DNA of 33,401 bases from Pseudomonadota bacterium (lineage in GTDB: Bacteria > Desulfobacterota > QYQD01), in contig DSAQ01000107.1 of the NCBI GenBank assembly GCA_011046395.1, positions 1-33,401 on the forward strand. The letters are read 5' to 3'. A model generated the notes under the pieces. The model had not been told where the DNA came from. It did no database searches and saw only the letters and a list, made by a program, of their open reading frames with translations. A program made the translations under genes and the position numbers. This document shows, one piece after another, positions 2,974 through 32,987 of the stretch (position 1 is the stretch's first letter; the number at the start of each line of letters is the position of its first letter).

Positions 2974-4273
2974 GCAACTTTAGGATTGCCGATGGCTCAA
3001 CTTCTTCCAATAGAGCAATGTAGAGCGAAAAAATGCCGATTCGGACGGCGCTGGTTTCCTTGTCCCAACCATAGAGTCTTTCAACAATGGAAACAAGAGT
3101 GTCCCAATCAGGAGTAGATTTCGGATGTTTTCCGCGCCAGTCCTCGACCATGCGCTGAAAGATACGGACGAGGAAAATAGACGAGCCGCAGGCCGGATCC
3201 AATACCTTGAATTCAGGCTTTGACTTAATATCCGGCGGGACTTCGTCCCATACCTGATTTACCGTGAGGTCTGCCAGAAAATGAGGTGTGTAATATGCCC
3301 CGTGGGCTCTGCGTTCCTTTGGCCTACCGGCAAGAAACCGGTTGTAAATAGCGCTGATAAGCTCAATGGGGATATAACGAAAATCATAGGGCCAGAAGCG
3401 GCCCTGACCAGTAGCAAGCTCAACGTTTCCTTCACGGAACGAGGAGAGACATTGCATATGCTCTGCAGTCAAAGGCGAAGAAGGAGCTTTTGTATCGAAG
3501 GCACATGGAGCGAAGAAAATATCACCGTTGAAGTCATGCCGAAGTTTTCCAAACAGCGCATTAAGGTTCTCTGGGGCTTTGCTGTTAAGCAAGTCTTTGA
3601 GTCCACTGATTTTTCCATGTCCAAGAGCATGTTTGAAATAATTAGGATCGATGATACCTTTGTCTTCAAGATAGGCGATAAAGGTAATTTGCAGTAACAA
3701 CGCCTGAGCTGATCCCGTGGTAAGCTTCCGTTCTGTTAGACTTGCCTCTGTCTCTCTCAAATTGGAAAGCAGAACTGTATCAACCTTCTTTTTCTGATCA
3801 AATTTGGTTTTATTGTCCTGGAAATAGCGACCCGACTCCACTCCGGTTATCAGATGAGAAAGCTCTATCGCATCCGCAACAAGATTGAATGGCTTGACAA
3901 GTCGTTCATCTTTCTTGTCATCCAAATCTGCTGTGTCTTCCGGCACGGGTGTCTGTGTTATCGAATAGGCGCGTACCTCCTCGGGTAGTATCACCAGCAG
4001 AAGGCTGACAAGCCCCTGGTTCCACAAGGATTTGTGTATGCGGTTTATCTCAAGGCGGTTCAACCGTTTTTGAATCAGAAAAGCAATGGCAGGAATGGAA
4101 TCAACACAGAAAAAACCGGAAAGGCCCAGTTTGTTAAACCCAGTACGCATAGCTGCCGCATGCGGCACTCCGCTAACTTCATTAGCCGAAAGGAATAGAT
4201 CCGGTCGGCTACGTCCTCTTAGACCGAGACTCTCGGTCCATATTTGTTGTTTAGCAGTATTCATAACCGGCAA
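2894..4273 (-). CDS. Eco57I-like N6-adenine DNA methyltransferase, N-terminal part (SAM-binding motif I)
   Basis: VLDPACGSSIFLVRIFQRM motif I. The reading frame ends just after a 9-nt T run, and the NPPW part continues in another frame. Confidence 0.7.
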   Translation of the reverse strand: MPVMNTAKQQIWTESLGLRGRSRPDLFLSANEVSGVPHAAAMRTGFNKLGLSGFFCVDSIPAIAFLIQKRLNRLEINRIHKSLWNQGLVSLLLVILPEEVRAYSITQTPVPEDTADLDDKKDERLVKPFNLVADAIELSHLITGVESGRYFQDNKTKFDQKKKVDTVLLSNLRETEASLTERKLTTGSAQALLLQITFIAYLEDKGIIDPNYFKHALGHGKISGLKDLLNSKAPENLNALFGKLRHDFNGDIFFAPCAFDTKAPSSPLTAEHMQCLSSFREGNVELATGQGRFWPYDFRYIPIELISAIYNRFLAGRPKERRAHGAYYTPHFLADLTVNQVWDEVPPDIKSKPEFKVLDPACGSSIFLVRIFQRMVEDWRGKHPKSTPDWDTLVSIVERLYGWDKETSAVRIGIFSLYIALLEEVEPSAILKLLAEGKLLPLLFGKTMCDHDFFFRKYA

Positions 4274-6371: not shown

Positions 6372-7592
6372 TCAGTCTGCCTGCCGGCGCAAAAATGTCG
6401 GCACGTCCAGTTCTTCTTCATCCATGGCCGCGGCATCGGAGAAACTACGTTTTCGCTGTAAGTTAGTATTCCCGGGTAGTATAGCCCTGGGCTGAAAACG
6501 CTCCACGGCCTGCCCTTCCGGAGACGAAGACGGCCCTCTGCTCCCGAGCCAAGGCCGGGCCGGAGCATCCTGTTTTCTGGGCTGAAGCCGGGGCAGAACG
6601 GCCTGAGGCGGGGATGCCTCCTTCTCGCTTTCTTCCTCTGTGTTGATGCCGGTGGCGATGACCGTGACGCGGAGTTCATCATCCAGGGCATCATCCAGAA
6701 CCGAACCGAATATGATATTGGCATCCTCATGGGCCTCTTTCTGGATAAGGGAAGAGGCGGCATATACCTCATCCATGGTCAAACTCTGGTTACAGGAGAT
6801 GTTGATCAAGACTCCACGCGCTCCGCTTATGGATATATCTTCCAGCAGGGGGCTGGAAATGGCCTTTTGCGCGGCCTCAACGGCCCGGTTTTCTCCGGAG
6901 GCAACGCCGGTACCCATGAGGGCCAGACCCATTTCCGACATAATGGTTCTGACATCAGCAAAATCCACATTGATGAGACCGGGCACGGTAATTACATCTG
7001 AGATTCCCCTTACGGCATAAAGAAGCACATCGTCGGCCTTTTTCAGCATTTCGAGGAAAGTAGCATTCTTTTCCGCGAGGCTCAGGAGGCGGTCATTAGG
7101 GATAGTGATGAGGGTATCCACATGTTTTTTTAATTCGCGAATGCCATCTTCTGCCTGCCGCATGCGTTTTTTTCCCTCAAAATGAAATGGCTTGGTAACT
7201 ACAGCTACGGTGAGGGCGCCTAGCTCCTTACCGATCTGGGCCACAATCGGCGCACCGCCGGTGCCGGTCCCGCCGCCCATACCGGCGGTAACAAAGAGCA
7301 TGTCACTACCGGACAGGGCTTCGCGTATCTTGTCTATACTCTCCAGGGCGGCCTGGCGGCCCTTGTCCGGATCGGCCCCGGCCCCCAGCCCACGGGTTAC
7401 CTCTGTGCCAAGCTGGATCTTAATGTCCGCGCTGGCCACCTCCAGGGCCTGGGCGTCTGTGTTGGCGGCTACAAAACAAACACCCTTTAAGTCGGACCTG
7501 ATCATATTTCTGACCGCGTTTGTGCCGCCGCCGCCAATGCCGAAGACCTTGATTTTCGCCCCATAATCATCTTCTGCAAACGTAAAGAGCAT
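6372..7592 (-). CDS. ftsZ: Cell division protein FtsZ
   Basis: GIGGGGTNAVRNMI, GGGTGTGGAPIVA tubulin signature, and C-terminal LDVPTFLRRQAD peptide. Confidence 0.97.
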   Translation of the reverse strand: MLFTFAEDDYGAKIKVFGIGGGGTNAVRNMIRSDLKGVCFVAANTDAQALEVASADIKIQLGTEVTRGLGAGADPDKGRQAALESIDKIREALSGSDMLFVTAGMGGGTGTGGAPIVAQIGKELGALTVAVVTKPFHFEGKKRMRQAEDGIRELKKHVDTLITIPNDRLLSLAEKNATFLEMLKKADDVLLYAVRGISDVITVPGLINVDFADVRTIMSEMGLALMGTGVASGENRAVEAAQKAISSPLLEDISISGARGVLINISCNQSLTMDEVYAASSLIQKEAHEDANIIFGSVLDDALDDELRVTVIATGINTEEESEKEASPPQAVLPRLQPRKQDAPARPWLGSRGPSSSPEGQAVERFQPRAILPGNTNLQRKRSFSDAAAMDEEELDVPTFLRRQAD

Positions 7593-7616: not shown

Positions 7617-8849
7617 CTATAATATCTTATCTTTGAACCATTTTTTCATACGGTTTGTGACCCGATTAAAAATATTTTCGTCCCGGATACGGAATTTTCT
7701 CTCCGGTTCATTGTTGAGTCCGTATATGAGAAGACCCACAGCCGTTGCATACATGGGACTGTTTATTACATCCACCAGCCCGGTAACGCCCTTGGGATAA
7801 CCGACGCGTGTCGGTAAGTTGAAGATTTGTTCGGCCATCTCCGGTATGCCTTCCAGCAAGGCTGATCCGCCGGTAACTATCAGGCCCGCGGCAACAAGTT
7901 CCTTAAACCCGGAACGAATTATCTCCTGATCAATCAGGGTAAAAACTTCTTCTACCCGCGGCTCCAGTATCTCACTCAATATATACCGCGAGACGATGCG
8001 CGGTTTCCTGCCGCCCACGCTGGGAACTTCGATGGTCTGATCTTTCTGGATCATGGTATTCAGACAACAACCGTGCCTGACCTTGATTTTTTCCGCCTCG
8101 GCCATGGGTGTGCGCAGGCCTACAGCAATATCATTAGTCAGGTTGTTGCCGCCCAGACCCAGTACCGAGGTGTGCCTTATACTGCCGCCGGTAAAAACAG
8201 CTAAATCGGTGGTGCCGCCGCCAAAATCGATCAGCGCCACCCCCAGGTCTTTTTCTTCATTACTCAAAACCGCTTCCGCCGAGGCCAGAGACTCCAGCAC
8301 TATATCGCAGACATCCAGCCCGGCCCGGTTGCAACACTTTATTATGTTGTGCGCCGAGGTAACGGCCCCGGTTATAATGTGCACCTTGGCCTCCAGGCGG
8401 ACACCGGTCATGCCTAAGGGGTCAATTATGCCGTCCTGATCATCTACAATATATTCCTGCGGCAGGATGTGGATGACCTCGCGGTCCATTGGTATAGCTA
8501 CGGCCCGGGCCGCGTCGATCACCCGGTCTATGTCATTCTGCCCTACCTCACGCCCTTTGATGGCAATCACGCCGTGGCTGTTAAAACCCTTGATGTGGCT
8601 GCCGGCGATACCGGCATAGACGGACTTTATCTCACAGCCCGCCATCAACTCTGCTTCTTCTATGGCCTTCTGGATAGAGTTGACGGTGCTTTCAATATTA
8701 ACCACCACACCCTTGCGCAGGCCGATAGACGGATGGGAGCCGACTCCCACGATCTTTATCGTATTTTCTTTTACTTCTCCTACTACCGCGCAGATCTTGG
8801 TCGTGCCGATATCCAGGCCGACAATGATATTCCCTTGATCTTTATCCAT
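7617..8849 (-). CDS. ftsA: Cell division protein FtsA
   Basis: GLDIGTTKICAVVGE, LIDFGGGTTDLAVF, and an amphipathic C-terminus NRMKKWFKDKIL. Confidence 0.96.
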   Translation of the reverse strand: MDKDQGNIIVGLDIGTTKICAVVGEVKENTIKIVGVGSHPSIGLRKGVVVNIESTVNSIQKAIEEAELMAGCEIKSVYAGIAGSHIKGFNSHGVIAIKGREVGQNDIDRVIDAARAVAIPMDREVIHILPQEYIVDDQDGIIDPLGMTGVRLEAKVHIITGAVTSAHNIIKCCNRAGLDVCDIVLESLASAEAVLSNEEKDLGVALIDFGGGTTDLAVFTGGSIRHTSVLGLGGNNLTNDIAVGLRTPMAEAEKIKVRHGCCLNTMIQKDQTIEVPSVGGRKPRIVSRYILSEILEPRVEEVFTLIDQEIIRSGFKELVAAGLIVTGGSALLEGIPEMAEQIFNLPTRVGYPKGVTGLVDVINSPMYATAVGLLIYGLNNEPERKFRIRDENIFNRVTNRMKKWFKDKIL

Positions 8850-8861
8850 AATTAAATTCCC

Positions 8862-9671
8862 CTAGGATAGGTTGATGGTCTTTCGGATCATAATTTTTCC
8901 ATTATAATACTCGCAATCCACATAGCTGACCGAATTATAGGCCTCCTTCAAATAAAGGTCATAAAGAACCATTTCCAGTCGCCTGAATTTTTTTGCCATA
9001 TCTCCCATCCCCAGTCTTATGGGGAAACGTCCATCTACTGTATGTAGAACCAGGCCCATCCTGGGGTCTATGTGGATTTCGGAGATATTTCTGGCCGGCA
9101 GCACATCTTCAACGTTCTTTTTGGCATAGAGAAGCGGCAAAAGCTCCCGCAGATGCCCGACCCTTTCCGAATCAGAGAGCAGCTCTCCTTTCTTTAGGCC
9201 GGTTATAATCGGATAATCCATATTCTCAGCCAGATTTGTCCGCGCGATTATTACGCCCTCTTTATCAACGTAATAAAGCCCGTTATCCTGCAGCAGCGCT
9301 ACCGGCTGTTTTTCCACGATGCGGATATAAAGGCGGTCGGGCAGTTCCTTACGCACGACGGCCTGTTTGACCCAGGGGTGCGTCTCCAGTGTCCGGCCGA
9401 TTTTATCCGCATCAATAGCCAGTATATTGCTGTGTATATCCACATTGGCCAGATTACGTATCTCTTCCTTGGAAATGCGCTGGCACCCGGTAATATGCAC
9501 TGAATTAATACGAAAGAGGCTGGAATGATACATCCAGCGGCAGCAGGTCCTTGTCAAAAAGATGCCGCCCGCGGACAAAAACAGCAGCAGCGCCAGCCCA
9601 AGCAATAAGATTATGCGCCTTTTACGGCGGCTGTCCGGCCTTTGAGGCATCCTTTTATAGCTACGCACCAA
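8862..9671 (-). CDS. ftsQ: Cell division protein FtsQ (POTRA domain)
   Basis: N-terminal TM then POTRA (INSVHITGCQRISKEEI...HPWVKQAVVRKELPDRLYIRIVEKQPVAL). Synteny murB-ftsQ-ftsA. Confidence 0.92.
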   Translation of the reverse strand: MVRSYKRMPQRPDSRRKRRIILLLGLALLLFLSAGGIFLTRTCCRWMYHSSLFRINSVHITGCQRISKEEIRNLANVDIHSNILAIDADKIGRTLETHPWVKQAVVRKELPDRLYIRIVEKQPVALLQDNGLYYVDKEGVIIARTNLAENMDYPIITGLKKGELLSDSERVGHLRELLPLLYAKKNVEDVLPARNISEIHIDPRMGLVLHTVDGRFPIRLGMGDMAKKFRRLEMVLYDLYLKEAYNSVSYVDCEYYNGKIMIRKTINLS

Positions 9672-11954: not shown

Positions 11955-13082
11955 TTAGCCACCTATCATCTTAAGACACTCTTCCGCAATAAGCTGAGCG
12001 GCGTTTGACTTGCCCAGCGCCAATGACCGGCCTGCCATATTCTTAAGGGCGCACTGATCTTCATACAGCGATTTAATCTCCCCGGCCAGAATATCCGGCC
12101 TGAGGTCGGCCTGTAGATATACCTTGGCAGCGCCGGCCCTTTCCAGACAGCGGGCATTTACCTCCTGATGGTTATTGGCCGCATAAGGATAAGGGATCAA
12201 CAGGGCAGGCTTCCCGATGGCGGTCAATTCAGCCAGAGTACCGGCCCCGGCCCTGCATACCACAACGCTTGCCCGGCCATAGGCCCATCCCATGTCATTA
12301 ATAAATGCGGAGACCGTGGCCTCAACCCCAGCCTGCCGATAAGCCTCCCCTACCCAGACCTCATCTTTCTCGCCGGTCTGGTGAATGAAGTAAAGTCGTT
12401 CCTTCAGGTCATTCAGACCGGCCAGGGCAGCAGTTATAATCTCATTTATGCGGTGCGCGCCTTGACTGCCGCCCAGGATAAGGACGGTGAACCGGTCGTC
12501 CACTTCCCCACCCTTACCAACTGAATCCAGTAAATCTTTCCGTACTGGATTCCCGGTAAGCATGGCCTTTCGTCCGGGGAAATAATCTCCGCTTTCCGGA
12601 TAAGAGATAAATATCCGATCTACGATGTGGCCTAAAATACGGTTAGTCAGACCCGGGATGGAGTTCTGTTCCTGTATCGCAGTCTTTATTCCCATAAGCC
12701 AACCTCCAAGGGTTACCGGCCCGGAGACATAACCGCCGACGCCCAGGATTAAATGGGGCCGGAAGTCTCTCAAAATGGCCAGTGTCTGTAATATCGCTAA
12801 AGGGACCATGGCCAGGGCCCGAACCGTACCAACTACGCCACGCCCCTTGATACCCTCGGCCCGTATCGTCTTGAACGAAAACCCGTATCTGCGCAGGGCC
12901 TCTACGTTTATTTTCCTGTCCGTGCCTACAAACAGGATGCTCGCGTCTCCTTTGCTCATCAGTTCCCTGGCCACAGCAATCCCCGGGAAAAGATGCCCGC
13001 CGGTTCCACCCCCGGCTACAATGATGCGTATTCTCTTTGCTTCATACATGTTAAACGTTCGAACGGATTTATCATATCGCAA
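11955..13082 (-). CDS. murG: UDP-GlcNAc--lipid I GlcNAc transferase MurG (likely start nearer 13049, MYEAKRIRI)
   Basis: IIVAGGGTGGHLFPGIAVA, ILGGSQGAHRIN, RAGAGTLAELTAIGKPALLIPYP. Confidence 0.96.
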   Translation of the reverse strand: MRYDKSVRTFNMYEAKRIRIIVAGGGTGGHLFPGIAVARELMSKGDASILFVGTDRKINVEALRRYGFSFKTIRAEGIKGRGVVGTVRALAMVPLAILQTLAILRDFRPHLILGVGGYVSGPVTLGGWLMGIKTAIQEQNSIPGLTNRILGHIVDRIFISYPESGDYFPGRKAMLTGNPVRKDLLDSVGKGGEVDDRFTVLILGGSQGAHRINEIITAALAGLNDLKERLYFIHQTGEKDEVWVGEAYRQAGVEATVSAFINDMGWAYGRASVVVCRAGAGTLAELTAIGKPALLIPYPYAANNHQEVNARCLERAGAAKVYLQADLRPDILAGEIKSLYEDQCALKNMAGRSLALGKSNAAQLIAEECLKMIGG

Positions 13083-14442
13083 CGGCCTGCTTTTTTAGCA
13101 AGCTCCGGGCTGCTTCCTGAAAAATATCTCCCCTCTCCGCATAACTACGAAACATATCAAAACTCGCGCAGGCCGGGGAGAGGAGGACAACATCCCCCGG
13201 CGCAGACTCCGCATAGGCCAGGCGCACGGCCTCCGGCAGCGTCCCGGCCTCCATAGTCCGGGTCAGATGTCCCAAGGCCCGGCGTATCTTTTCTCCGGCC
13301 TCGCCGATAAGGATAAGCGCCTTCACCTTATTGCGCACCATACCTTCCAATGCCGCATAACTGCCGCCCTTGTCCCGGCCTCCGGCAATCAGTATGACCG
13401 GCCGGTCGAACCCGGCCAGGGACTTGACCACCGAACCCACATTGGTCCCCTTGGAATCATCATAAAAGCTTACGCCGCCAATCTCACAGACAAATTCCGT
13501 ACGGTGACGCAGGCCCTCAAACGTCTCCAGGGCCTCCTGTATGGCGGATGGCGTACAGCCGCACATCCGGGCCGCAAGCACGGCGGCCATGATGTTTTCC
13601 AGGTTATGCGCGCCCGTCAATTTCACCTTCTCTAATGAATAGGTCTCCCCGGTTTCCTGATCCAAGCGGCAGAGCAGCCTGTTCCCCTCCGGGTAGGCCC
13701 CTTCACCGTGCGGCTTATGGCTGAAGGTGAGTATGCGGGAGGGTATTTTACTTACGTACTGCGTCACCACAGGATCATCACCGTTAATAACAGCAAAGTC
13801 ACCGGCGGTCTGGTTGGCAAAAATCCTGAACTTGGAGAGGGCATAGGCATTAAAAGATGGATAACGATCCAAATGATCCTCGGTTATGTTCAAAAGGAGC
13901 CCCAGCCAGGGTCGAAAGAATTTGGTAGTGTCCAACTGAAAACTGCTTATCTCTGCCACCACAAAATCCCTGTCCTGTTTCTGCCCCGCGTAGCCGATCA
14001 AGGGGCGGCCGATGTTGCCACCCACGAATATCTTTTTACCCGTATGCGCCAGGATGTGACCGATTAATTCCGTAGTCGTGCTCTTGCCATTAGTGCCGGT
14101 TACCGCGATGACAGGCGTATCTATGAAACGGGCGGCCAGCTCTATCTCTCCAATGACCGGAATACCGGCCCGCCTTGCCGCCTGAAGGGGCTCAATCTCC
14201 AGAGGCACCCCCGGGCTGACCACGATCAACCCAGCCGCAAGGAAGGTCTTCATGTTATGCCCGCCGGCCTCCAGAGGAATCCTGTTCTCTTCAATCCAGG
14301 CCAGCTTATCTGCGGGGATATCCTTAAGGGCAGAGGTTTCGGATATGGAGACCCGGGCCGCGCGCTCCAGCAAAAACGCAGCAGATTCCTTACCGCTTGC
14401 GCCCAGCCCTACCACCAAGACCTTTTTATCTTTAAAGTCCAT
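13072..14442 (-). CDS. murD: UDP-N-acetylmuramoylalanine--D-glutamate ligase MurD
   Basis: VLVVGLGASGKESAAFL, AVTGTNGKSTTTELIGH, FYDDSKGTNVGSVVKSL. Confidence 0.96.
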   Translation of the reverse strand: MDFKDKKVLVVGLGASGKESAAFLLERAARVSISETSALKDIPADKLAWIEENRIPLEAGGHNMKTFLAAGLIVVSPGVPLEIEPLQAARRAGIPVIGEIELAARFIDTPVIAVTGTNGKSTTTELIGHILAHTGKKIFVGGNIGRPLIGYAGQKQDRDFVVAEISSFQLDTTKFFRPWLGLLLNITEDHLDRYPSFNAYALSKFRIFANQTAGDFAVINGDDPVVTQYVSKIPSRILTFSHKPHGEGAYPEGNRLLCRLDQETGETYSLEKVKLTGAHNLENIMAAVLAARMCGCTPSAIQEALETFEGLRHRTEFVCEIGGVSFYDDSKGTNVGSVVKSLAGFDRPVILIAGGRDKGGSYAALEGMVRNKVKALILIGEAGEKIRRALGHLTRTMEAGTLPEAVRLAYAESAPGDVVLLSPACASFDMFRSYAERGDIFQEAARSLLKKQAVAI

Positions 14443-18513: not shown

Positions 18514-20445
18514 CTATGAAGACGGTTTAAATTCTATTACACAACGAGAATTCTTTCTTAGCCTTGTTCCCGGCGCCGGTGATTGACAAACCGCAACCCC
18601 AGAACCGGTGACTACCAGAGAGACATCATATCCTTGAAGCATATACAGGGCTTCCCGCATGGATTTGCCCCGTACGTTCGGCATAACCATGGCCTTTGTA
18701 GCCGTGGCCGCAGCCTGACTGCAGCTACTTTGAGCCTTATTCTCTCTTCCGGTGTAACCCCGGTCTTTTTTTTCTCTATATGAAGCAAGCGCTTTTGCCT
18801 GGGGACGGGTTAATACTCTAAGAGAGGCATAGGCCATGTCTTTTATCCGGCGTTCTATTTTTGTCCTTACTTCCTCTTCCCCCGGGGCTCCTTCAATTAT
18901 CATCAGTATAGCTACCTTAGGATTATGAGCCGGCACGCCCCCCAGTAAGTATTTAATATAATCAACCCCGGACGAATTGTCGAGAGAGGGATGATCCGGG
19001 GATGAAATGCCGGCGGGGGGCCGGACATAATTGCAAGCTGTAAGCAAGATAAAGTTTTTATCCTCTTTGCCTTGCTGAGTTCTAAGAATGGCGCTTATTT
19101 TTTCAGATGTCTCCGGCGTGCATGCCTGCCTTGCCGGAGCGCACTGATATTCTTTTATTAAATTACCTTCACTGTCGGTTACCTTTGAGACCACGTGAGG
19201 CGGCATAAACACGCCGCGGTTTAAGATAGCCCCAAAGGCCGTAATGAGCTGAAGGGGGGTTACCGTAATCCCTTCACCCCGGTAAAATGCAGATATATCG
19301 CCCTTATATTGGCTATAAGGCGGCAAAGTGCCGCTATTTTCGGCAGGCAGACAGATACCTGTCTTATTGCCAAATCCGAGCTTGAGAAGAAAATTATATA
19401 GAAACTCCGGCGAAGGGGTGTGGGGGGATTCAGAGAGATTTTTTTCATTGTCTTTTGTGTCGCCATGCGACACGTGTGTTGCATTATCACGCCCTTGCAT
19501 GGCCGGAACACTGGATTTTTCTCTTAAAGTCTGCTCTTCAATGGCCGCCGCCGCTCCAAAAAACCCGGCCAGTTCACCCAGTTCATATATATCGGTGACG
19601 GCCCGATTCCTGCGCAGCGAGGCATCGGCCTCCCAGAAGGTGTTAAGATTGTAAGATGGATAATTGGCCATAGCCAATACGGCCCCGCTCTTAATATCCA
19701 TGACAATAATGGCCCCTGCTTTAACTATATTATCTTTGGCCGGAACCGGACAAAACCCCCTCTCCGCCATGGCCTGAATGTTGCTATCCACAGTCAGAAT
19801 AATATTATTGCCCTTGCCGGCATTAACCTCTGTTACCCCGCCATTGAATGTCAAGCGGGTTGACTCGTCGCACTTCTTCTGAAGTGACAAAGGGGTGCTG
19901 CACAGGAGATCATCATAGGCTGACTCTAATCCCTCTATGCCGTGACCATCCGTATCGGCAAAGCCTATAATCTGAGCGGCCAGGCTGTTCCGGGGATAGA
20001 GGCGGCGGTTTTCATTAATAAAATGGATACCCTTGAGCTTGAGATTCTTTATCATCTCTGCCTGATGGGAGGCCACACGACGGGCTATCCATACAAAGGC
20101 CTTCTCACATTCGAGCATCTTGAGTAGATCTTTTTCGTTGATCCTGAGTGTGTTGGAAAGGGCGGCCGCCGTCTGGGCCGGATCGTCAACATCCAGAGGA
20201 TGGGCATAAACGGAGTAGGCGCTAGCGGTTACAGCCAACTCTCTGTAGCTCCGGTCGAAAATGCCGCCTCGATAAGGAGCAAGGGATAAGGCAGGTTCCG
20301 GAGTGTGGCCATGCCCCGAAATTTTCTTATCCTGTTCACCTGCATGGAAGGCACGGGCTAATAGAATGCCCGACCCTGATATAAGGATCGCCAGGATAAT
20401 AATATAGGGGGCATAATTCTTACGCTTACCGGTTTCCCTTTTCAT
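18514..20445 (-). CDS. ftsI: FtsI/PBP3-family division protein with apparently lost transpeptidase motifs; TM + pedestal + degenerate TPase + PASTA-like C-terminus
   Basis: Retained: APYRGGIFDRSYRELAVTASAYSVYA, LGFGNKTGICLPAENSGTLPP, GEGITVTPLQLITAFGAILNRGVFMPPHVV, and PASTA-like MPNVRGKSMREALYMLQGYDVSLV...QSPAPGTRL. Not retained: SxxK (YELGELAGFF), SxN, KTGT. Position between ftsL and murE. Confidence 0.88.
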   Translation of the reverse strand: MKRETGKRKNYAPYIIILAILISGSGILLARAFHAGEQDKKISGHGHTPEPALSLAPYRGGIFDRSYRELAVTASAYSVYAHPLDVDDPAQTAAALSNTLRINEKDLLKMLECEKAFVWIARRVASHQAEMIKNLKLKGIHFINENRRLYPRNSLAAQIIGFADTDGHGIEGLESAYDDLLCSTPLSLQKKCDESTRLTFNGGVTEVNAGKGNNIILTVDSNIQAMAERGFCPVPAKDNIVKAGAIIVMDIKSGAVLAMANYPSYNLNTFWEADASLRRNRAVTDIYELGELAGFFGAAAAIEEQTLREKSSVPAMQGRDNATHVSHGDTKDNEKNLSESPHTPSPEFLYNFLLKLGFGNKTGICLPAENSGTLPPYSQYKGDISAFYRGEGITVTPLQLITAFGAILNRGVFMPPHVVSKVTDSEGNLIKEYQCAPARQACTPETSEKISAILRTQQGKEDKNFILLTACNYVRPPAGISSPDHPSLDNSSGVDYIKYLLGGVPAHNPKVAILMIIEGAPGEEEVRTKIERRIKDMAYASLRVLTRPQAKALASYREKKDRGYTGRENKAQSSCSQAAATATKAMVMPNVRGKSMREALYMLQGYDVSLVVTGSGVAVCQSPAPGTRLRKNSRCVIEFKPSS

Positions 20446-23413: not shown

Positions 23414-23464
23414 CTATTGTCTCTACATGCCTATTGTCTCTACATGCCTATTGTCTCTACTTGC
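23414..23464. repeat. Three tandem copies of a 17-bp unit (ctattgtctctacatgc) spanning the 3' end of qmoC
   Basis: 23414-23430, 23431-23447, and 23448-23464 (third copy has ACTTGC in place of ACATGC). Confidence 0.9.
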
Positions 23465-24549
23465 CTCTTGTAAGCCAGGGCTACCGTACGGTACACCATA
23501 TGCGCCAGTTTGGAATAGGGTAAGTATCCTATGATATAGAAGACAAACATCAGGTGAACAACGTACATCGGATAAGCCAGGTTAGCAATGTTTGCCAGCC
23601 GCAAAAGCTCCGTGAGTATCCCTGATGTCACTACTCCGAATATCATGAGGATAAGCGACCAGTCAAAATAAGAACTACTCTGATCCGGGTTCGCCAGCCT
23701 GTTCCTTATAACCAGGGAAATACCGATAAAGAGGATAATAGCACTGATATTCCCAAGGATCTTGGCCGGATCATATAACGGCAGGGGTGTCTCCCGGTGC
23801 AGGATATATTCATAAAATACAACCATAGTGGTCGTTGCAAAGAGGCCGACAAACCCATAAAACACAGCCAGGTGGGCGGTAAAACGCCCCACGTTTGTCC
23901 CGCACTTTTTAAAGCGCACATGCCCTACTATTTCACCAATGGTCTCCAGTAGCGACTTGAAAAAGTTTCGTCCGACCAGATGCCGGTAACGACTGGGGCT
24001 CATCTCATTCCAGAACTTTCTTACTCCCAGCCCCAGGGAAATTATGGCCAGACCGGCAAAGGGCAAGAATATGGAATCCACAAACTTGATGGGCAAAAAT
24101 TTCGAATAAACAATCTCGCCCGCTGGTATCTTCAAATTTCCAAGAGCGGCAAGAACCAGCAAGATTATCGCCAGAGGGATAGCCAGGATCACCGGCAGAT
24201 ACTTACCCTCTCCGACCAGGTTGCCCATAAATCTTGGAAAGGCATATTCCCTTATAGCGTAAGCACGCGCCGCCGCCACAACGTCACCCGGCCTTGCCCC
24301 TCGCGGGCAATAGGTCGAACAATCACCGCACTGGTGGCACGCCCAGATATCACTATTTTTGACCAGTTTGTCCTTCAGCCCCCACTGCGCCCAGATCATC
24401 TCTTTTCGCGGGAAAGGCTTTTCGTCTGAAGACAGGGGACAAATGACCGAGCATGTCGCGCACTGGAAACACTTCTTCAGAGACTCTCCACCTAATTTCT
24501 GAATCTCCTTAACGAACTTAACATCGGGATCAACTGAATAACCTGCCAT
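23440..24549 (-). CDS. qmoC: Quinone-interacting membrane-bound oxidoreductase subunit QmoC (HdrC/HdrE-like)
   Basis: Two 4Fe-4S motifs CFQCATCSVICP and CHQCGDCSTYCP, then a polytopic C-terminal domain. Downstream of qmoA/qmoB. Confidence 0.93.
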   Translation of the reverse strand: MAGYSVDPDVKFVKEIQKLGGESLKKCFQCATCSVICPLSSDEKPFPRKEMIWAQWGLKDKLVKNSDIWACHQCGDCSTYCPRGARPGDVVAAARAYAIREYAFPRFMGNLVGEGKYLPVILAIPLAIILLVLAALGNLKIPAGEIVYSKFLPIKFVDSIFLPFAGLAIISLGLGVRKFWNEMSPSRYRHLVGRNFFKSLLETIGEIVGHVRFKKCGTNVGRFTAHLAVFYGFVGLFATTTMVVFYEYILHRETPLPLYDPAKILGNISAIILFIGISLVIRNRLANPDQSSSYFDWSLILMIFGVVTSGILTELLRLANIANLAYPMYVVHLMFVFYIIGYLPYSKLAHMVYRTVALAYKRQVETIGM

Positions 24550-24561
24550 TTCACATACCTC

Positions 24562-26880
24562 CTAAAAGCCTTTCATGGGGCTGGGACCGATGGCCTCCAT
24601 CTGCTCCATAAATTCATTGAAAATCTGTGGTATCTTATCATATTCGTCAATGGCCACTTGTACCAATTTAACACGTTCTGATTCAAGGGCCAGGGATTTT
24701 AATGTCTCGCCCACGTTATCCATACGCCTGTTGGCCAGCTCACTGCCCTTGGCAAAGTGGCATTGATAATCATCGCCATATTTACAACCCAAAAGGATAA
24801 TGCCGTCAATGCCTCTGGACATGGCATCTTTAATCCAAACCATATTCATCGAGCCCAGACAACGCACCGGGATAACCCTTATGGCCGCCGGTAACTTAAG
24901 CCCCTTCATGGCGGCCATGTCCATAGCCGGATAGGCGTCATTCTCACAAACAAAGGCGATAACCCTGTATATACCGTCTTCTTCCGGCACTTCAAAGGAT
25001 TTCACCATGGAGCCGATCATGTCAATATTATAATTTTTGAAGCCAATGATCCTCTCCGGGCAGGCCCCCATACAGGTACCACAGCGCCGGCACCGCGTGG
25101 GATTGGGCTTGGGCGTTCCTCTCTCATCGTCATCCAGGGCCCCAAACGGACATTCTTCCGTACATCTCTTACACTGTGTGCATCTTGCGAAGAAGAAATC
25201 CGGATAACTCATATCCCCGGAGCGCGGGTGAACGGACACGCCCCTATAGGCCGATTCTATACACTGGATGGCCTTGAGGGCTGCACCGGCCGCATCGTCT
25301 TCACACATAGGTATATTCATGGGCTGCCGCACGCAGCCTGCCGCATAAACACCAGTGCGCCTGGTCTCGTAAGGGAAACAGATAAAATTGGAATCCGCAA
25401 ATCCGTTGAATAGCTCCAGGTCTATCAGGCTCGGCCCCTGGCGGTAAGCCAGATTAAGAATGGCTTCATTCTGAGTGGTGGGGACCATGCCGGTGGCCAG
25501 AACCACCATATCCACGTTAACCGTGATCTTCTCTCCAATCAGGGTATTATCAACCTCTACGGTCAGGTTTTTCTTGGCATCCTCGGTAATGGATACTACA
25601 TCGCCCTTGGTCAGGAAGACTCCCGGGTCCTGCTGCATGCTCTTGTAGAAGTTCTCATACTGCCCGGGTGTCCGCATGTCTTTATAGAAAATAAACGCCT
25701 TGGCATCATCGCCCTGCTCTCTAACATACCTAGCTTGTTTAAGGGAGGTGATACAGCATGTCGCCGAACAGTACGGAAGATGTTTCTCATCCCGCTGGCC
25801 GGCGCACTGAATAAAGGCCACGCTCTTTGCCGGCTTCCCGTCTGAAGGTCTAACCAGGGATTCTTTGGAGGCCAGCTCTTCCATCATAACGTTAGTGATT
25901 ACGTTCGGATACTTACCAAAACCAAGAGAGTCCAGCTTGGTAGCGTCATAGGGCTTCCACCCGGTAGCCAGGACTACCGCGCCGTAGCGTTCTGCATTCT
26001 CGTCTATGGCCAGAATATCCTTATACACACGGCCACCCGCCTCAGCCTGGGCGGCTTCCCCGCCTTCAGAAGGCTTTGCGCCTTCACCAGCCTTAGCTTC
26101 TTCTTCAGCAACAACCTTCGGGGGCACGTCCCACTCGGTTTCGGTCCCCGCCGGTTTAAACGAGACATGGTATAGCCCTGGCGCACCAGCTATCCGGGCT
26201 ACTTCCGTCTCTGTGCGTACATCGATTTTCGCATGGCTACTAACAGCACTAATCTTGGACTGAATGTCCGGTGTCTCTATATCGGTGTATGGGTAGGTTT
26301 TGGCCGCTTGTTTATAGAGCTTGGCCGCAAACCCGCCCAGTTCCTTCTCTTTTTCCACGAGAGTGACCTCATAGCCGACACTGGCCGCATCAAGGGCTGC
26401 GCTCATACCCGTCACACCGCCGCCAATAACCAGGATTTTCTTATTAATCTCCTCTTCCGGTTTATAGGGTTCAGGAAGCTCACCTTTTTGGGCCTTCACG
26501 ATACCCATACGTACGTAATCCTCGGCCAGCATCTGAAATTCCGGGTCAATAGCCGCCTCTTCTCCTTCGCCTCCTGCTTTGTTTGCCTCGTGGCTCCAGA
26601 CCACGCCTTCCCGCAGATTTACCCTCTCCACCAGTACAGGGCCGAAGTCAAAAACATCATACATGACCCTTGGTGAACAGGCGGCGATTATCACGGTGTT
26701 GACGCCCTCTCCTGCAATATCCTGTTTTATAAGCTCAACACCCTCAGGACTACAAAGAATCGGGTGGTTCTTGCAGATCGGAACCTTAGATTTTGCCGCT
26801 ACCCCGGCCAGTTTCTCTATGTCAAGGGACTTCCCGATATCACAGCCGGTACAGATGTATACTCCGTATTTCTTTTCCAT
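24562..26880 (-). CDS. qmoB: QmoB (HdrA-like flavoprotein with C-terminal MvhD-like domain)
   Basis: ILVIGGGVTGMSAALDAASVGYEVTLVEKE, CTQCKRCTEECPFGAL, CRRCGTCMGACPERI, VIPVRCLGSMNMVWIKDAM. Confidence 0.93.
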   Translation of the reverse strand: MEKKYGVYICTGCDIGKSLDIEKLAGVAAKSKVPICKNHPILCSPEGVELIKQDIAGEGVNTVIIAACSPRVMYDVFDFGPVLVERVNLREGVVWSHEANKAGGEGEEAAIDPEFQMLAEDYVRMGIVKAQKGELPEPYKPEEEINKKILVIGGGVTGMSAALDAASVGYEVTLVEKEKELGGFAAKLYKQAAKTYPYTDIETPDIQSKISAVSSHAKIDVRTETEVARIAGAPGLYHVSFKPAGTETEWDVPPKVVAEEEAKAGEGAKPSEGGEAAQAEAGGRVYKDILAIDENAERYGAVVLATGWKPYDATKLDSLGFGKYPNVITNVMMEELASKESLVRPSDGKPAKSVAFIQCAGQRDEKHLPYCSATCCITSLKQARYVREQGDDAKAFIFYKDMRTPGQYENFYKSMQQDPGVFLTKGDVVSITEDAKKNLTVEVDNTLIGEKITVNVDMVVLATGMVPTTQNEAILNLAYRQGPSLIDLELFNGFADSNFICFPYETRRTGVYAAGCVRQPMNIPMCEDDAAGAALKAIQCIESAYRGVSVHPRSGDMSYPDFFFARCTQCKRCTEECPFGALDDDERGTPKPNPTRCRRCGTCMGACPERIIGFKNYNIDMIGSMVKSFEVPEEDGIYRVIAFVCENDAYPAMDMAAMKGLKLPAAIRVIPVRCLGSMNMVWIKDAMSRGIDGIILLGCKYGDDYQCHFAKGSELANRRMDNVGETLKSLALESERVKLVQVAIDEYDKIPQIFNEFMEQMEAIGPSPMKGF

Positions 26881-26884
26881 CTAC

Positions 26885-28153
26885 CTACCTCCTCACCAAA
26901 GTTTGAATAGCCTTCATCGCTGCTCCGGTAGCAGTCTCAGCACAGGAAACGACATCTAAGGGTTCCTTGGCGCAACCACAGGCAGAAATTCCACGCTGTG
27001 GATCGGCCAGAACAAAACTGCTCTCGTTCAATGGGGCGTTAAGGGAGATATCTGTCCCGGCCATCATCGGCTGCATCCCCGCGGCCAGGACAGCCATATC
27101 CACCTTTTCACGGACTTTTGCCCCGGTTGCCGTATTCTCAGCAACCACCGTCACATCCTTCGTCGCGGGATCTTCCTCTATTTGCGCCACCTTACCTTTA
27201 ATTAATGAGATATTGGGATTGGCAGCGACCTTACGATAGAAATTCTCATATCGGCCGGGTGTTCGAATGTCTATATAGTATATAAAAATCTTCGCGTCAG
27301 GATACTGTTCAGCCACATAAGTTGCCTGTTTCAATGAGGCCAAACAGCAGATATATGAACAATATGGCAGATGGTTTTCATCTCTGGAGCCGGCGCACTG
27401 GACAAAAGCGATCTTTTGTATCTCCTTCCCATCAGAAGGCCGTAAAATCTTGCCCGCAGTCGGTCCATTGGGCGCGGCTAATCTCTCCATCATCATATTG
27501 GTGATGACGTTTTTATATTTTCCAAATCCGAGGTTATCCATCTTAGCAGCATCATAGGGGTTCCAACCGGTAGCCCAGACTATGCTGCCGACCTTCAGTT
27601 CCAGGTTCTTCGGTTCCATCTTCAGATCGATAGCATCGTATTTACAAACCGCAACGCACTTGGCACAACTTTCTTTCTGGCATACCTTACCGTCGATAAC
27701 ATATTGCATCGGAAAAGCCATGTCATGCGGCTTATATGCCGCCTTATTCGTATCCATGCCGAAGTTAAAGTCGTTTTCGCGTGTAACCGGGCACACCTCG
27801 GCGCAGGCATTACAGGCCACACATTTCTCATTTACGTATCGGGGGGTTATTTTCACAGACACATCGTAGTTGCCGGGACTCCCTGAAACCTTCTCCACCT
27901 CGGCCAGGGTATAAAACTTAACACGGGGGTTCGTCTTGATTCTTTTGAAGTTAATCTCCAAGCCACAGGTTGGAGGACATAGCTTTGGAAAATATTTATT
28001 TAGCTGAGCTACCCGGCCGCCAAGGTATGGATTCTTCTCAACTAATATAACATCATATCCCACCTCTGCCGCCTCCAGGGCAGCCGTTAATCCGCTAATC
28101 CCCCCACCAACTACTAATATGGTTCCGCTCACAGGACCTGTTCCAGATGTCAT
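26885..28153 (-). CDS. qmoA: QmoA (HdrA-like flavoprotein)
   Basis: ILVVGGGISGLTAALEAAEVGYDVILVEKNPYLGGRVAQLNKYFPKLCPPTCGLEINFKRI; CVACNACAEVCPV. Confidence 0.93.
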   Translation of the reverse strand: MTSGTGPVSGTILVVGGGISGLTAALEAAEVGYDVILVEKNPYLGGRVAQLNKYFPKLCPPTCGLEINFKRIKTNPRVKFYTLAEVEKVSGSPGNYDVSVKITPRYVNEKCVACNACAEVCPVTRENDFNFGMDTNKAAYKPHDMAFPMQYVIDGKVCQKESCAKCVAVCKYDAIDLKMEPKNLELKVGSIVWATGWNPYDAAKMDNLGFGKYKNVITNMMMERLAAPNGPTAGKILRPSDGKEIQKIAFVQCAGSRDENHLPYCSYICCLASLKQATYVAEQYPDAKIFIYYIDIRTPGRYENFYRKVAANPNISLIKGKVAQIEEDPATKDVTVVAENTATGAKVREKVDMAVLAAGMQPMMAGTDISLNAPLNESSFVLADPQRGISACGCAKEPLDVVSCAETATGAAMKAIQTLVRR

Positions 28154-28194
28154 GCTATTCCTCCATGGTCGATTTTTCTCGCTCTAAGGACACC

Positions 28195-28230
28195 AAAAAA
28201 CCTCCAGGCGCCTTTCACGACGCCTGGAGG
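28195..28230 (-). terminator. Intrinsic terminator between aprA and qmoA
   Basis: Minus strand CCTCCAGGCG-tcgtgaaagg-CGCCTGGAGG-TTTTTT: perfect 10-bp stem followed by T6. Confidence 0.85.
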
Positions 28231-28279
28231 CATTGGTCTATCATTTTGTTACGTGCTTAACACTCCCCTCTGACCTCGC

Positions 28280-30202
28280 TTATTCCGGAATGATCTGTTT
28301 CCACTCTTTCTTAAATACCGACCATTCTTTCTTCTCGGGGTCGTACTTGGAGTTGACAAAGCACTTCCAGCTTTCTTCGTCAACCTTCGGGAAGTCTGAC
28401 CGGTAAAAGAAGCCCGGATATCTGGTCTCTTCCCTGAAGAGCATGTGGCGGATATGGGACTCTACCGTACCCAGGCGGTGATATTGTTCCCAGGCCCTCA
28501 TGAGCTCATGGAGATCGCCAGCCGCTAATTTCTCAGAGTCCTCACGCAGCCACTCCAGAAGCTGCATACATCTCTTCAGCAGGGGCCCGCTGGTCATGTA
28601 GTTGGCATTGGCGCCCGCGCCATATTCGTCCGAAGCCTTGATCAGCCGGAGCATAAAGCCCTTTGGTTTAATATAGTTCGGGTTGACATCCGCAGCGGTG
28701 CTGGCATTCTTGAACTGTTCATAGGTCTTTACCGGCTTATAGATCTCAGCAGCCAGTTCCTTGGCGCTCTTTTTCAGGGCTGGAGCAAAGCCGGCATTGT
28801 CTCGGACATATCGAGCCATTGCTTTGGCAGCCATTCGACCCTCGGCATGGGCACCGGAGGAGAACTTATGGCCGGAGGCGCCGACGCCGTCACCGGCCGT
28901 AAAGAGGCCATTAACCGTGGTCATCCGGTTATAACCCCACTTCCACTCTGCCGGCACCCAGGCCTCATTCGGGCCGCTTACCCAGATGCCGCAGCAACCA
29001 GAGTGCGAACCAAGGAGGTAGGGCTCGGTGGGCATGATCTCAGAACCAACCTTTTCCGGCTCAGTATTCGTACCGGCCCAGAGTCCAGCCTGGCCCACGC
29101 TCATATCCAGGAAGTCTTCCCAGGCCTCGGCCTCGAGATGCTTCATCTCTTTTGGAGTCATGTTTTTACCCAGCTCCGCCAGGGCCGTAGCCGTATCGAT
29201 AATAATCGGGCCGCGACCATCTAACATTTCCTTCAGCATGAGATGGTTTCTCAAACAGGTGGCCGGGACCTTGGCCAGTCCGTAGGGCGGGTACTCTTCC
29301 AGCATGGCTTTATTCTTTACCATGTAGTTTTCACCCAGGGCGTTCATAGCCTTGGCCTTGAAGAGAAGGAACCAGGCGCCCACCGGACCATAGCCGTCTT
29401 TGAAGCGGGCCGGCACGAAACGGTTTTCCATCATGGTCAGCTCAGCGCCGACCTCGGCACACATGGTGTAGGTGGAACCGGCATTCCATACCGGGTACCA
29501 GGCCCGGCCCATACCCTCACCGGTGGAGCGCGGCCGGAAGACGTTCACTGCACCGCCAGAGGCGACCAGCATGGTCTTGCACTTAAAGACGTGGACCTTG
29601 TTTTCCCTGGTGCTAAAGCCTACTGCGCCGGCGATGGTGTTGGGCTTATTGGCATCCAGAAGCAGCTTTACGATGAAGATCCTCTCCATGATGTTCTGTT
29701 CACCTAAGGCCATCTTGGCGGCCTCAGCCACGATGCACTTATAGGACTCGCCATTGATCATGATCTGCCATCTACCGGAGCGGACCGGCTTGCCGCCCTC
29801 TTTCAGGGTCTTGCCCTCGTCGCCTTTCTGTTTCCAGATCGGGAGGCCCCATTCCTCAAAAAGCTCCACAGAGTCATCCACGTGGCGGCCCAGGTCATAG
29901 ATAAGGTCCTCACGGACGATACCCATCAGGTCGTTTCTAACCATCCTTACGTAATCATCCGGCTTGTTTTCACCCAGGTAGGTGTTGATGGCCGAAAGAC
30001 CCTGGGCTACCGCGCCGCTTCTCTCTAAAGCAGCCTTGTCGACAAGAATGGTCTTGGCATTCGGGGCCCACTTTTTAATTTCAAACGCCGCACCGCAGGC
30101 AGCCATCCCGCCGCCCACGATAAGAATATCACACTCATGTTCCGCAATTTCCGGATTTACTACTGCGGGGAGTTCACCTAAAGGTTTGTTTGGTAATGCC
30201 AT
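28280..30202 (-). CDS. aprA: Adenylylsulfate reductase subunit alpha AprA
   Basis: ILIVGGGMAACGAAFEIKKWAP, FKCKTMLVASGGAVNVFRPRSTGEGMGRAWYPVWNAGSTYTM, GDGVGASGHKFSSGAHAEGR. Confidence 0.97.
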   Translation of the reverse strand: MALPNKPLGELPAVVNPEIAEHECDILIVGGGMAACGAAFEIKKWAPNAKTILVDKAALERSGAVAQGLSAINTYLGENKPDDYVRMVRNDLMGIVREDLIYDLGRHVDDSVELFEEWGLPIWKQKGDEGKTLKEGGKPVRSGRWQIMINGESYKCIVAEAAKMALGEQNIMERIFIVKLLLDANKPNTIAGAVGFSTRENKVHVFKCKTMLVASGGAVNVFRPRSTGEGMGRAWYPVWNAGSTYTMCAEVGAELTMMENRFVPARFKDGYGPVGAWFLLFKAKAMNALGENYMVKNKAMLEEYPPYGLAKVPATCLRNHLMLKEMLDGRGPIIIDTATALAELGKNMTPKEMKHLEAEAWEDFLDMSVGQAGLWAGTNTEPEKVGSEIMPTEPYLLGSHSGCCGIWVSGPNEAWVPAEWKWGYNRMTTVNGLFTAGDGVGASGHKFSSGAHAEGRMAAKAMARYVRDNAGFAPALKKSAKELAAEIYKPVKTYEQFKNASTAADVNPNYIKPKGFMLRLIKASDEYGAGANANYMTSGPLLKRCMQLLEWLREDSEKLAAGDLHELMRAWEQYHRLGTVESHIRHMLFREETRYPGFFYRSDFPKVDEESWKCFVNSKYDPEKKEWSVFKKEWKQIIPE

Positions 30203-30250
30203 AGCTAATATCCTCCTTACAAAAGTTTAAAGTTCTAGGTGTATAAATTA

Positions 30251-30679
30251 TTACGGGGTCGGCAGCGTCTTACCAATTTCAGTAAAGAGCAGCTCATTGT
30301 CCAGATCGGCTGCCGCTGGCTCGGGCTTGCCCTCAAAGGGTTTAATGGAACCTTCAGGTGTCGTCCGAATGGGGAATTTGAAGCGTTTCAGATTCCCATT
30401 TCTGAATTTAATGGTCCACATAATGGAATCGGAAGCTCTCATGGGAACCACAGAACCGCCCAGAGGGACGATGTCTGAATATGACCGGACCTCAATGGCG
30501 CCCTGTGGGCAAATCTTTACACAGGAAAAACATTCCCAGCAGGCATCCGGCTCCTGGTTGTATGCCTTCATCTCATCGGTATTCAATACCATCAGGTCAT
30601 TCGGGCATACATACATACATGCGGTCTTCTCACCGCCCTTGCAACCATCGCATTTCTCTGGAATTACAAAACTTGGCAT
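30251..30679 (-). CDS. aprB: Adenylylsulfate reductase subunit beta AprB
   Basis: MPSFVIPEKCDGCKGGEKTACMYVCPNDLMVLN...CWECFSCVKICPQGAIEVR. Confidence 0.97.
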   Translation of the reverse strand: MPSFVIPEKCDGCKGGEKTACMYVCPNDLMVLNTDEMKAYNQEPDACWECFSCVKICPQGAIEVRSYSDIVPLGGSVVPMRASDSIMWTIKFRNGNLKRFKFPIRTTPEGSIKPFEGKPEPAAADLDNELLFTEIGKTLPTP

Positions 30680-30719
30680 AATTTTTCCTCCTGCACTTTA
30701 TCTATGTTGTACTACCGAC

Positions 30720-30745
30720 AGGTTTGTTATCGTTTCTACAAACCT
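30720..30745 (-). promoter_or_regulatory. Hairpin in the aprB 5' leader
   Basis: AGGTTTGT-agaaacgata-ACAAACCT, perfect 8-bp stem about 40 nt upstream of the aprB start. Confidence 0.5.
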
Positions 30746-30930
30746 CACCTCTTAAGCATTCTTATTTTTCTCTGATCATCCCCCCTCTCGATATAGATTA
30801 TCGCTCTAAAGACTCGCCCCGTCCGTGGGCATAACCTCCGCACACAGCACCAGACGGGCACCTAAGAAAGCTCACAGCCGAGCACTTTCTCTCAATTCTT
30901 CCGAACAAGACCTAGTGAATGATGTTTCAT

Positions 30931-30959
30931 TTTATATATGGCATCCGCCCATATGTCAA
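30931..30959 (-). promoter_or_regulatory. Sigma70-like promoter of aprBA (TTGACA-N17-TATAAA)
   Basis: -35 complement TGTCAA at 30954-30959, -10 complement TTTATA at 30931-30936. Confidence 0.7.
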
Positions 30960-30966
30960 GAGAAAA

Positions 30967-30984
30967 AATGAATAATTGCTCATT
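30967..30984. promoter_or_regulatory. 18-bp imperfect palindrome just upstream of the apr -35 (AATGAGCAATTATTCATT on the minus strand)
   Basis: 14/18 positions symmetric; resembles the element upstream of the sat promoter. Confidence 0.5.
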
Positions 30985-31199
30985 TTTAAGGAGTAGTCTT
31001 CCAAACGAAAAGTGTTGGAATATCAAAGGGTAACATGATGTATCCATTGTCTATATCTTGTATCTAGAAACACATATGGCACAACATGTAGACGAATCTA
31101 TGGAGGCGTTCTGCTACCAGCCATCGGCTTTACAGGAAAAGCAGAAAGGACATGAGACACTGCAACGAACTTTATTGTTAAGGACGGAGAAGGCAAATA

Positions 31200-31232
31200 A
31201 GGAAGCCGCCCACCAGAGGCGGGCGGCTTCCT
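31200..31232 (-). terminator. Intrinsic terminator downstream of the sat-linked small gene
   Basis: Minus strand AGGAAGCCGCCC-gcctctggt-GGGCGGCTTCCT-TATTT; 12-bp stem including the terminal A-T pair. Confidence 0.75.
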
Positions 31233-31253
31233 TTGTTTGGATATACGTCGGAT

Positions 31254-31610
31254 TTAAACCTCTATGTCCGGAGGAGGAAGATACTCTGATTCCTTCGCGG
31301 CAGCCTCTTTTATCTCCGTCAGTCGTTTTAAGACGCCGTCTACCGCCTCATCGCCCAGGGACTTCGTAATGGCCACTTCATCAAAAAGTACCCGGTTAAA
31401 AGCAATGGGTACGTCAGTAATGAATCCTCTCGAATCTATCCGGGCAGTCCCGAACGCGTCCATGACCTTTTTCGCCTCTTCATCGCTGACTTCTACAACA
31501 AAGGCATTCAACGCCCCTCCAAACATCTTCTCTACCTTGTTTTCCAGCCCGCTCCCTTCTATCTTCTTTAGCCGGCTCTCATCTAAAAGCACTGCTATTG
31601 ACTTGCCCAT
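31254..31610 (-). CDS. Small protein (118 aa) of unknown function directly downstream of sat
   Basis: ORF with good coding character (MGKSIAVLLDESRLKK...). 15 bp from sat, same strand, followed by a terminator. Confidence 0.75.
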   Translation of the reverse strand: MGKSIAVLLDESRLKKIEGSGLENKVEKMFGGALNAFVVEVSDEEAKKVMDAFGTARIDSRGFITDVPIAFNRVLFDEVAITKSLGDEAVDGVLKRLTEIKEAAAKESEYLPPPDIEV

Positions 31611-31625
31611 AATCTCACCTCCTGT

Positions 31626-32987
31626 TTAGATTTCCATATGAGGTACATCAACCTCTAATTCCCTTTCTCTTTCTATCAAATACTTCGGATTGACAAATGG
31701 ATAGCCATAATGCTTCCACCACTTCGCAACAATCTTGTAGACCTCAGGCCTGAATATGACCCCCGGCGGGAAGACACCCTCGGCCACCATGCCCCGGATA
31801 AAGCTTCCGCTGAATTTCTGCCTCTCTTTGTGGTTGCAGTTTGCGCTATAGGCAATCTCCAGACACTTCGGACAATACCAGAACTCAGCCATATTCTGAG
31901 GCCTGATCTTCAGGCCATAGGGCACTTCATTCACCGGAGCCGGGAAGCCAAAACTGGGTATTCCCTTGTCCCAAAGGATCTGTGTGGCGTACATATCGTA
32001 ATATTCACCTACCGCCGCATGATCTCTTCCAAACATATGGTGCGTGCAACCCATATTCTGCCTGATTACCCCGTGCAGCATGGACTCAAGGGGATTCCCA
32101 TACCTCATATCCCATAAACAGATGGTCACCAGGTGTCTGTTCGGGTTGATATAATTGCCGGTATTGACCGCCTCATGACCTTCCACTATGGCCTCATCCG
32201 GATAATCCCCCTTTCTCTTGACACCGATTATGGCATTTACCTGGATGCCGTGACAGGGCTCTGAATCCCCGGTATAAGCGGCATTCTTCATGAGATGCTC
32301 ATGGCCCAGGTGCGGGACATTCCTGGTCTGATGGTTTATTACCGTCCTCCATCCCCTCCTGTCATATTCCTCTCTGCACTTTTTCGGAGGGAACCAGAAC
32401 CGGTCAAAAGGCGGTACCATCATGGGCTCGTTTATTATCTTATACTTCCCGGCCAACACCACCGGATTCAGACTCTTATAAATAACCCAACCGGGGTGCT
32501 TCTTATCGAATGGCTCTTTCACCACCTCGGGGTTGTCTTGGGGAGTCCCAAAGGTCTTGTGTGCGAGTTCCTCTCTATCCTCAATCCTATACACCTCTTC
32601 CACATCAAGGATGGCAAAGGGCTCTCCCTTAAGCCTCAAAAGCACTCTATCCCCTGAGGTCACACCTAACTGCTTGTAATCTTCTTCGGAGATATCAAAA
32701 ACCAGCGGATAAGGGAAGATCCAATCGTTAAGCAGTCTCCTCTCCTTCAATATTCTCTCAACCTCTGCCTGTTTCATCGACCCTTCAACCGGAGAAAAGA
32801 AACCATAACAGGTGGACATTATCTCCCGGTAAACGTTCCTTACCGGCACACCCTTCTCATCCACGGTCGGTTTAATGTCATAAACAGGGCAACCTTTGGC
32901 CAGCTTTTTCCCTGCCGCAGGGTCCTTCACCACCCTGTCTATAAGTCTGCCACCATGTGGCTCAGGCCTATCTATCCTAATTGACAT
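31626..32987 (-). CDS. sat: Sulfate adenylyltransferase (ATP sulfurylase) Sat
   Basis: NHQTRNVPHLGHEHLMKNAAYTG (QxRNxxHxGHE-like motif); HHMFGRDHAAVGEYYD. Confidence 0.96.
   Translation of the reverse strand: MSIRIDRPEPHGGRLIDRVVKDPAAGKKLAKGCPVYDIKPTVDEKGVPVRNVYREIMSTCYGFFSPVEGSMKQAEVERILKERRLLNDWIFPYPLVFDISEEDYKQLGVTSGDRVLLRLKGEPFAILDVEEVYRIEDREELAHKTFGTPQDNPEVVKEPFDKKHPGWVIYKSLNPVVLAGKYKIINEPMMVPPFDRFWFPPKKCREEYDRRGWRTVINHQTRNVPHLGHEHLMKNAAYTGDSEPCHGIQVNAIIGVKRKGDYPDEAIVEGHEAVNTGNYINPNRHLVTICLWDMRYGNPLESMLHGVIRQNMGCTHHMFGRDHAAVGEYYDMYATQILWDKGIPSFGFPAPVNEVPYGLKIRPQNMAEFWYCPKCLEIAYSANCNHKERQKFSGSFIRGMVAEGVFPPGVIFRPEVYKIVAKWWKHYGYPFVNPKYLIERERELEVDVPHMEI

Follow-up and report, generated by a model that had tools for sequence, protein, structure and literature searches.

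How does a bacterium close its septum when the transpeptidase encoded in its division gene cluster has lost the active site? The question arises from a stretch of 33,401 nucleotides (the window), in which the dcw genes follow the order mraZ-rsmH-ftsL-ftsI-murE-murF-mraY-murD-murG-murC-murB-ftsQ-ftsA-ftsZ and the ftsI slot is occupied by one uninterrupted frame (Table 1). Its product matched all three relevant Pfam domains above their cut-offs (Transpeptidase PF00905 with 103.8 bits at residues 244–533, PBP_dimer with 49.2 bits and PASTA with 34.6 bits), its closest solved structures are FtsI/PBP3, and its identity to triad-intact relatives is about 30–36%. Having PBP_dimer and PF00905 in the dcw slot after ftsL, the protein is thus FtsI by descent. 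An earlier sequence-only reading had credited it with an uninterrupted frame, an overlap with ftsL and preserved TM helix, pedestal and PASTA parts, all of which was borne out. Elsewhere in the window the open reading frames, read by eye, include a redox operon resembling QmoABC-AprAB with a Sat-like gene (23440–32987, the latter at 31626–32987), which would indicate dissimilatory sulfur metabolism; the host lineage is one of uncultured sulfate reducers. Two adjacent overlapping frames at 1159–4273 resemble one restriction/methyltransferase (NPPW motif) in two frames.

Table 1. Features of the dcw cluster in the window, parts of FtsI, and a membrane protein encoded in related clusters
Feature	Position	Strand	Basis or remark
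ftsI, dead class B PBP homologue	18514..20445	-	643 codons; frame search and profile matches
ftsL, 117 aa	20442..20795	-	4-nt overlap with ftsI; DivIC match weak
FtsI TM helix, residues 13-33			
FtsI pedestal, residues 58-200			
FtsI eroded transpeptidase domain, residues 241-545			
FtsI PASTA, residues 586-643			
Former SxxK, E291-L-A-G294	19564..19575	-	alignment; Arg replaces Gly in G002
Polar stretch in place of deleted SxN region, residues 305-347 (about)	19405..19533	-	profile positions 320-360 unmatched
KTGT-replacing segment (ACNYVRPPAG), residues 441-500	18946..19125	-	alignment
murD	13072..14442	-	stop at 13072
murD/murG junction, site without ftsW	13043..13085	-	gene reading; comparison within genus and phylum
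murG	11955..13082	-	start at or before 13049
ftsQ, kept	8862..9671	-	
ftsA, kept	7617..8849	-	
ftsZ, kept	6372..7592	-	
Membrane protein of families f24/f54	L088:8085-8879; L148:10007-10792; L150:9692-10483; L154:8650-9435; L152:9306-10094	-; -; -; -; +	

The catalytic motifs were sought by alignment with FtsIs of Desulfobacterota (YEPGSTFK...) and with solved PBP3 (FEPGSTVK). Residues 287–303 (YELGELAGFFGAAAAIE, positions 19587–19537 of the minus strand) cover the nucleophile motif, in which PGSTFK has become LGELAG, with Glu291 in place of the catalytic Ser and Gly294 in place of Lys, so that SxxK reads ELAG (ELAR in one congener). A polar stretch stands where the SSN segment has been deleted, and ACNYVRPPAG has taken the place of KTGT, the stretch QQGKEDKNF...PPAG lying at 19077–19009. 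These three losses had been claimed before from the sequence itself, and the alignment upheld each of them; the interval then given for the nucleophile region (19553–19587) was right in location and slightly short, offsets being within a few codons. The protein has no alternative triad elsewhere, and outside the lost motifs it can still be aligned with solved FtsI/PBP3.

The genome carrying the window (2.73 Mb, 98% complete) was compared with those of four congeners, all five assemblies being drafts of 81–98% completeness; contigs of two congeners are public as MAGs (JASEGX010000026, Thermodesulfobacteriota, and QYQD01000190, Deltaproteobacteria). In each of the five species ftsI has the same number of codons, no indels and no triad, at 95–96% identity, and the former catalytic Lys is Gly in four of them. 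Pairwise dN/dS of ftsI was 0.20–0.25, in the range of murE, murD, murG and murB and higher than for ftsA and ftsZ; in the former transpeptidase domain it was 0.14–0.23. Such uniformity of length and such dN/dS in five species mean that neither sequencing error nor neutral decay explains the gene, and the common architecture also excludes a pseudogene of a single species. Variable sites are absent from the TM helix and number two in PASTA, which in conservation comes second to the TM; the segments that replaced the motifs are conserved as well, and the linker 546–585 is nearly free to vary. With catalytic residues lost and purifying selection acting in several species, FtsI can be classed by sequence as a pseudoenzyme, and the supported best reading is that of a candidate kept for a structural role. 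The initial preference for such a role over pseudogenisation thus gains support from the orthologues, which have the losses in common and evolve under constraint, and from which we infer that FtsI may serve as a scaffold.

The second peculiarity of the cluster was overlooked at first: ftsW is missing. In the window murD abuts murG, and a genome-wide search for SEDS proteins found no FtsW, RodA being the only SEDS protein registered. FtsI is therefore left without its cognate SEDS partner. PF00905 proteins are three in this genome: MrdA with intact motifs (PPGSTYK/SCD/KTGT), the dead FtsI and a single class A PBP, which is bifunctional and also intact. MrdA, an intact second class B PBP of the kind it had been proposed to look for, belongs to the mreBCD-mrdA-rodA operon (mreD-mrdA-rodA were read in this genome, mreB and mreC in the congeners G001 and G004); neither a second intact FtsI nor FtsW was found in the genome search. 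FtsQ, FtsL, FtsB, FtsA and FtsZ are all present. In the absence of a division-specific pair of SEDS protein and class B PBP this divisome belongs to the FtsW/FtsI-less type, and with both the triad and FtsW gone, the division wall in this lineage has to be built without the pair usually thought essential.

Contrary to the initial impression of an isolated case, the same state was found in 15 families of the phylum. A first set of 59 relatives yielded other genomes with RodA only, and a screen of 198 genomes of at least 95% completeness added more with a single SEDS protein. Of the latter, 30 were followed up. In 24 of these FtsW is missing and the protein in the FtsI slot has no triad, and four have FtsW in the cluster (G074, G076, G150, G205); the remaining two were G191, where the cluster is incomplete, and G195, which was left out having no rsmH match. 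Altogether, in 34 of 34 examined FtsW-less (RodA-only) clusters the ftsI slot codes for a triad-less or truncated protein of 248–703 aa (families f1, f15, f24, f28, f29, f49, f54, f55, f61, f65, f67, f68, f77, f79 and f83; these codes are labels of the search tool, not taxon names). For G002, G072, G112 and, in part, G175 the murD-murG junction lies off the contig and the loss of FtsW was deduced from the SEDS count; eight more single-SEDS genomes (f28, f54, f67), whose dcw clusters were not read, stand outside the 34. The length of the slot protein is 607–621 aa in f15, 410 in f29, 324 in f28, where Pfam does not recognize it, and 248 in f24, where it consists of TM and PASTA. All 46 full-length FtsIs from other genomes have the motifs, and every relative with FtsW in the dcw cluster and FtsI readable to its end has an intact triad; this count leaves aside G014, with ftsI split into two frames, and the slot of G074, where the transpeptidase match is strong. 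Thus, the two losses occur together repeatedly. Some 40 of the 198 genomes would thus be FtsW-less, the ftsI slot having been read in 32 of them. The sole apparent exception is G191 (f27; L160, L166, L167), in which FtsI is intact and only RodA was found; its dcw cluster ends after mraY in the assembly, so that FtsW may be absent merely from the assembled part.

The remnants were compared with a profile built from the 46 intact proteins. FtsI of the genus matches profile positions 2–319 and 361–653. In other families the stretches near SxxK-SxN and KTG go first, and the N-terminal part, often with PASTA, remains; in f24/f54 only TM and PASTA are clear, and in f28 only the N-terminal part (TM and pedestal). 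Since the retained parts differ in this way from family to family, no single shared contact explains all of them. In the murD-murG interval of f24/f54, where ftsW would be expected, a conserved polytopic membrane protein of about 262 aa is encoded, for which one member scanned gave no Pfam match. Its similarity to FtsW is weak (hhalign E 0.03, probability 1.5%), and it is possibly a shrunken FtsW. In f15 (L086, L087) murE and murF are apparently fused into one frame of about 1030 aa.

To count the losses, trees of eight dcw proteins were built with FastTree and, on a reduced set, with IQ-TREE; these are linked genes, and the trees do not stand for a genome-wide species tree. The genus is placed next to G050, which has the intact pair, with full support; f24/f54 are placed beside G033/G025 (intact) and the other FtsW-less families fall into clades including G041 (intact). 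The grouping of every FtsW-less taxon in one clade was rejected (p-AU 0.0004), and so was a union of the genus with f24/f54. A clade that takes in every loss but f24/f54, the genus included, was not rejected (p-AU 0.199), and only two origins are therefore statistically forced. At least two origins of the FtsW/FtsI loss have thus to be accepted, and four or five losses are favoured.

Based on these data one can suggest the following scenario. Loss of the division-specific glycosyltransferase FtsW would have been the first step, freeing FtsI from its catalytic role. FtsI would then persist as a non-catalytic divisome protein, a scaffold or adaptor, held in the FtsQ-FtsL-FtsB complex by its TM helix, pedestal and PASTA, which may also allow binding of peptidoglycan or other synthases. 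Septal peptidoglycan would be polymerized and cross-linked by non-dedicated enzymes, namely the one class A PBP, as in C. difficile, RodA-MrdA of the elongasome, or both. Taken as a whole, this scheme of a dead scaffold with FtsQLB and a septum made by general synthases appears to us probable. The best-known non-catalytic role of FtsI is allosteric activation of FtsW, and with FtsW absent it cannot apply here. On the broader statement, that loss of FtsW repeatedly turns FtsI non-catalytic and that about one fifth of the sampled Desulfobacterota lack the pair and have the remnant together with FtsQLB recruiting or activating a general synthase, our judgement is evenly balanced.

As the main septal synthase we favour the class A PBP, with RodA-MrdA as its main rival. 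A class A PBP was found in 33 of 33 FtsW-less genomes tested and in four of four FtsW-positive controls, and being universal in both groups it does not discriminate between the mechanisms. In G106 (f15; dcw cluster L147), which is 99% complete, no SEDS protein, MrdA or MreB was found; either a contig is missing or this bacterium lives with class A PBPs alone. In the closed genome of G018 rodA, its only SEDS gene, is split by a frameshift (L091:7656–8788). Both cases lean towards the class A PBP, and a missing contig or a sequencing error could explain them.

It is conceivable, though on the whole we rather doubt it, that elongation and division both depend on RodA-MrdA alone, with the dead FtsI as an adaptor that brings it to the Z ring instead of activating FtsW. 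Nearly all FtsW-less genomes have RodA as their sole SEDS protein, always beside intact MrdA, FtsQLB and FtsA are kept, and homology of SEDS proteins suggests that a pedestal once contacting FtsW could contact RodA. However, G106 and G018 suggest that RodA is dispensable in their family, and the equivalent pair of C. difficile only elongates (PMC10693644). It is unlikely that the remodelled domain acquired a new enzymatic or ligand-binding function, for instance as a sensor of peptidoglycan or lipid II signalling to FtsQLB: conservation of the replaced segments and of PASTA, second only to that of the TM, would agree with it, but matches in Pfam, NCBIfam and PDB were to PBPs only and no new motif was recognized. 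Progressively shorter slot proteins in several families (248–410 aa) are what a functionless relic under slow neutral decay would leave, yet this explanation is highly improbable, being already refuted for the genus at the level of dN/dS and by the lack of indels, and having against it the open frame retained in the native slot of all 34 FtsW-less clusters. Least credible of all is an artefact of assembly or contamination by which a live pair was missed, as drafts might allow, because the assemblies of all five species, independent of each other, give one picture, murD adjoins murG wherever the junction was assembled, and single-contig genomes of other FtsW-less families (G031, G174, G095, G166) are in the same state.

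To our knowledge, the literature presents FtsW-FtsI as indispensable everywhere for making septal peptidoglycan, a few cases apart. The phylum thus offers several natural losses of FtsW with FtsQLB, FtsA and FtsZ kept, in which the function of FtsQLB, and of the part of FtsI not concerned with catalysis, can be addressed directly in the absence of FtsW. The annotation of ftsI as transpeptidase is wrong in many genomes, and beta-lactams specific to PBP3 are predicted to have no effect on septation in FtsW-less bacteria. A naturally dead FtsI recurring in dcw clusters appears to be undescribed, no description having been found in the open-licence literature.

From FtsI/PBP3 of other dcw clusters, which it resembles in gene position, overlap with ftsL and the succession of TM, pedestal, transpeptidase-derived domain and PASTA, the protein differs in having neither SxxK, SxN and KTG nor a partner FtsW. 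Catalytic mutants of B. subtilis PBP2B and of C. difficile PBP3/SpoVD demonstrate that a division class B PBP can act without its own catalysis (PMC12713402); those were engineered from live enzymes that have a SEDS partner, whereas the dead FtsI described here arose naturally, is fixed and has no partner left. That Desulfobulbaceae lack FtsW is already known: in this family, cable bacteria included, ftsW and ftsN are absent and mre-pbpA-rodA is retained in one cluster, and the available text of that study treats FtsI as an ordinary divisome protein with no mention of active-site loss (PMC7873302). Division without FtsW/FtsI is likewise known in C. difficile, which has no division-specific pair, its class A PBP making the septum and RodA-PBP2 elongating the cell (PMC10693644). 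The two divisomes are alike in lacking the canonical pair and in retaining a class A PBP together with RodA-PBP2. C. difficile still has catalytic SpoVD/SpoVE, encoded in its dcw cluster and serving sporulation (PMC10693644), whereas the divisome described here has lost FtsW, contains a dead FtsI and keeps FtsA. C. difficile can thus be regarded as the closest experimental analogue, and by this analogy a septal role of the class A PBP is proposed for the bacteria described here.
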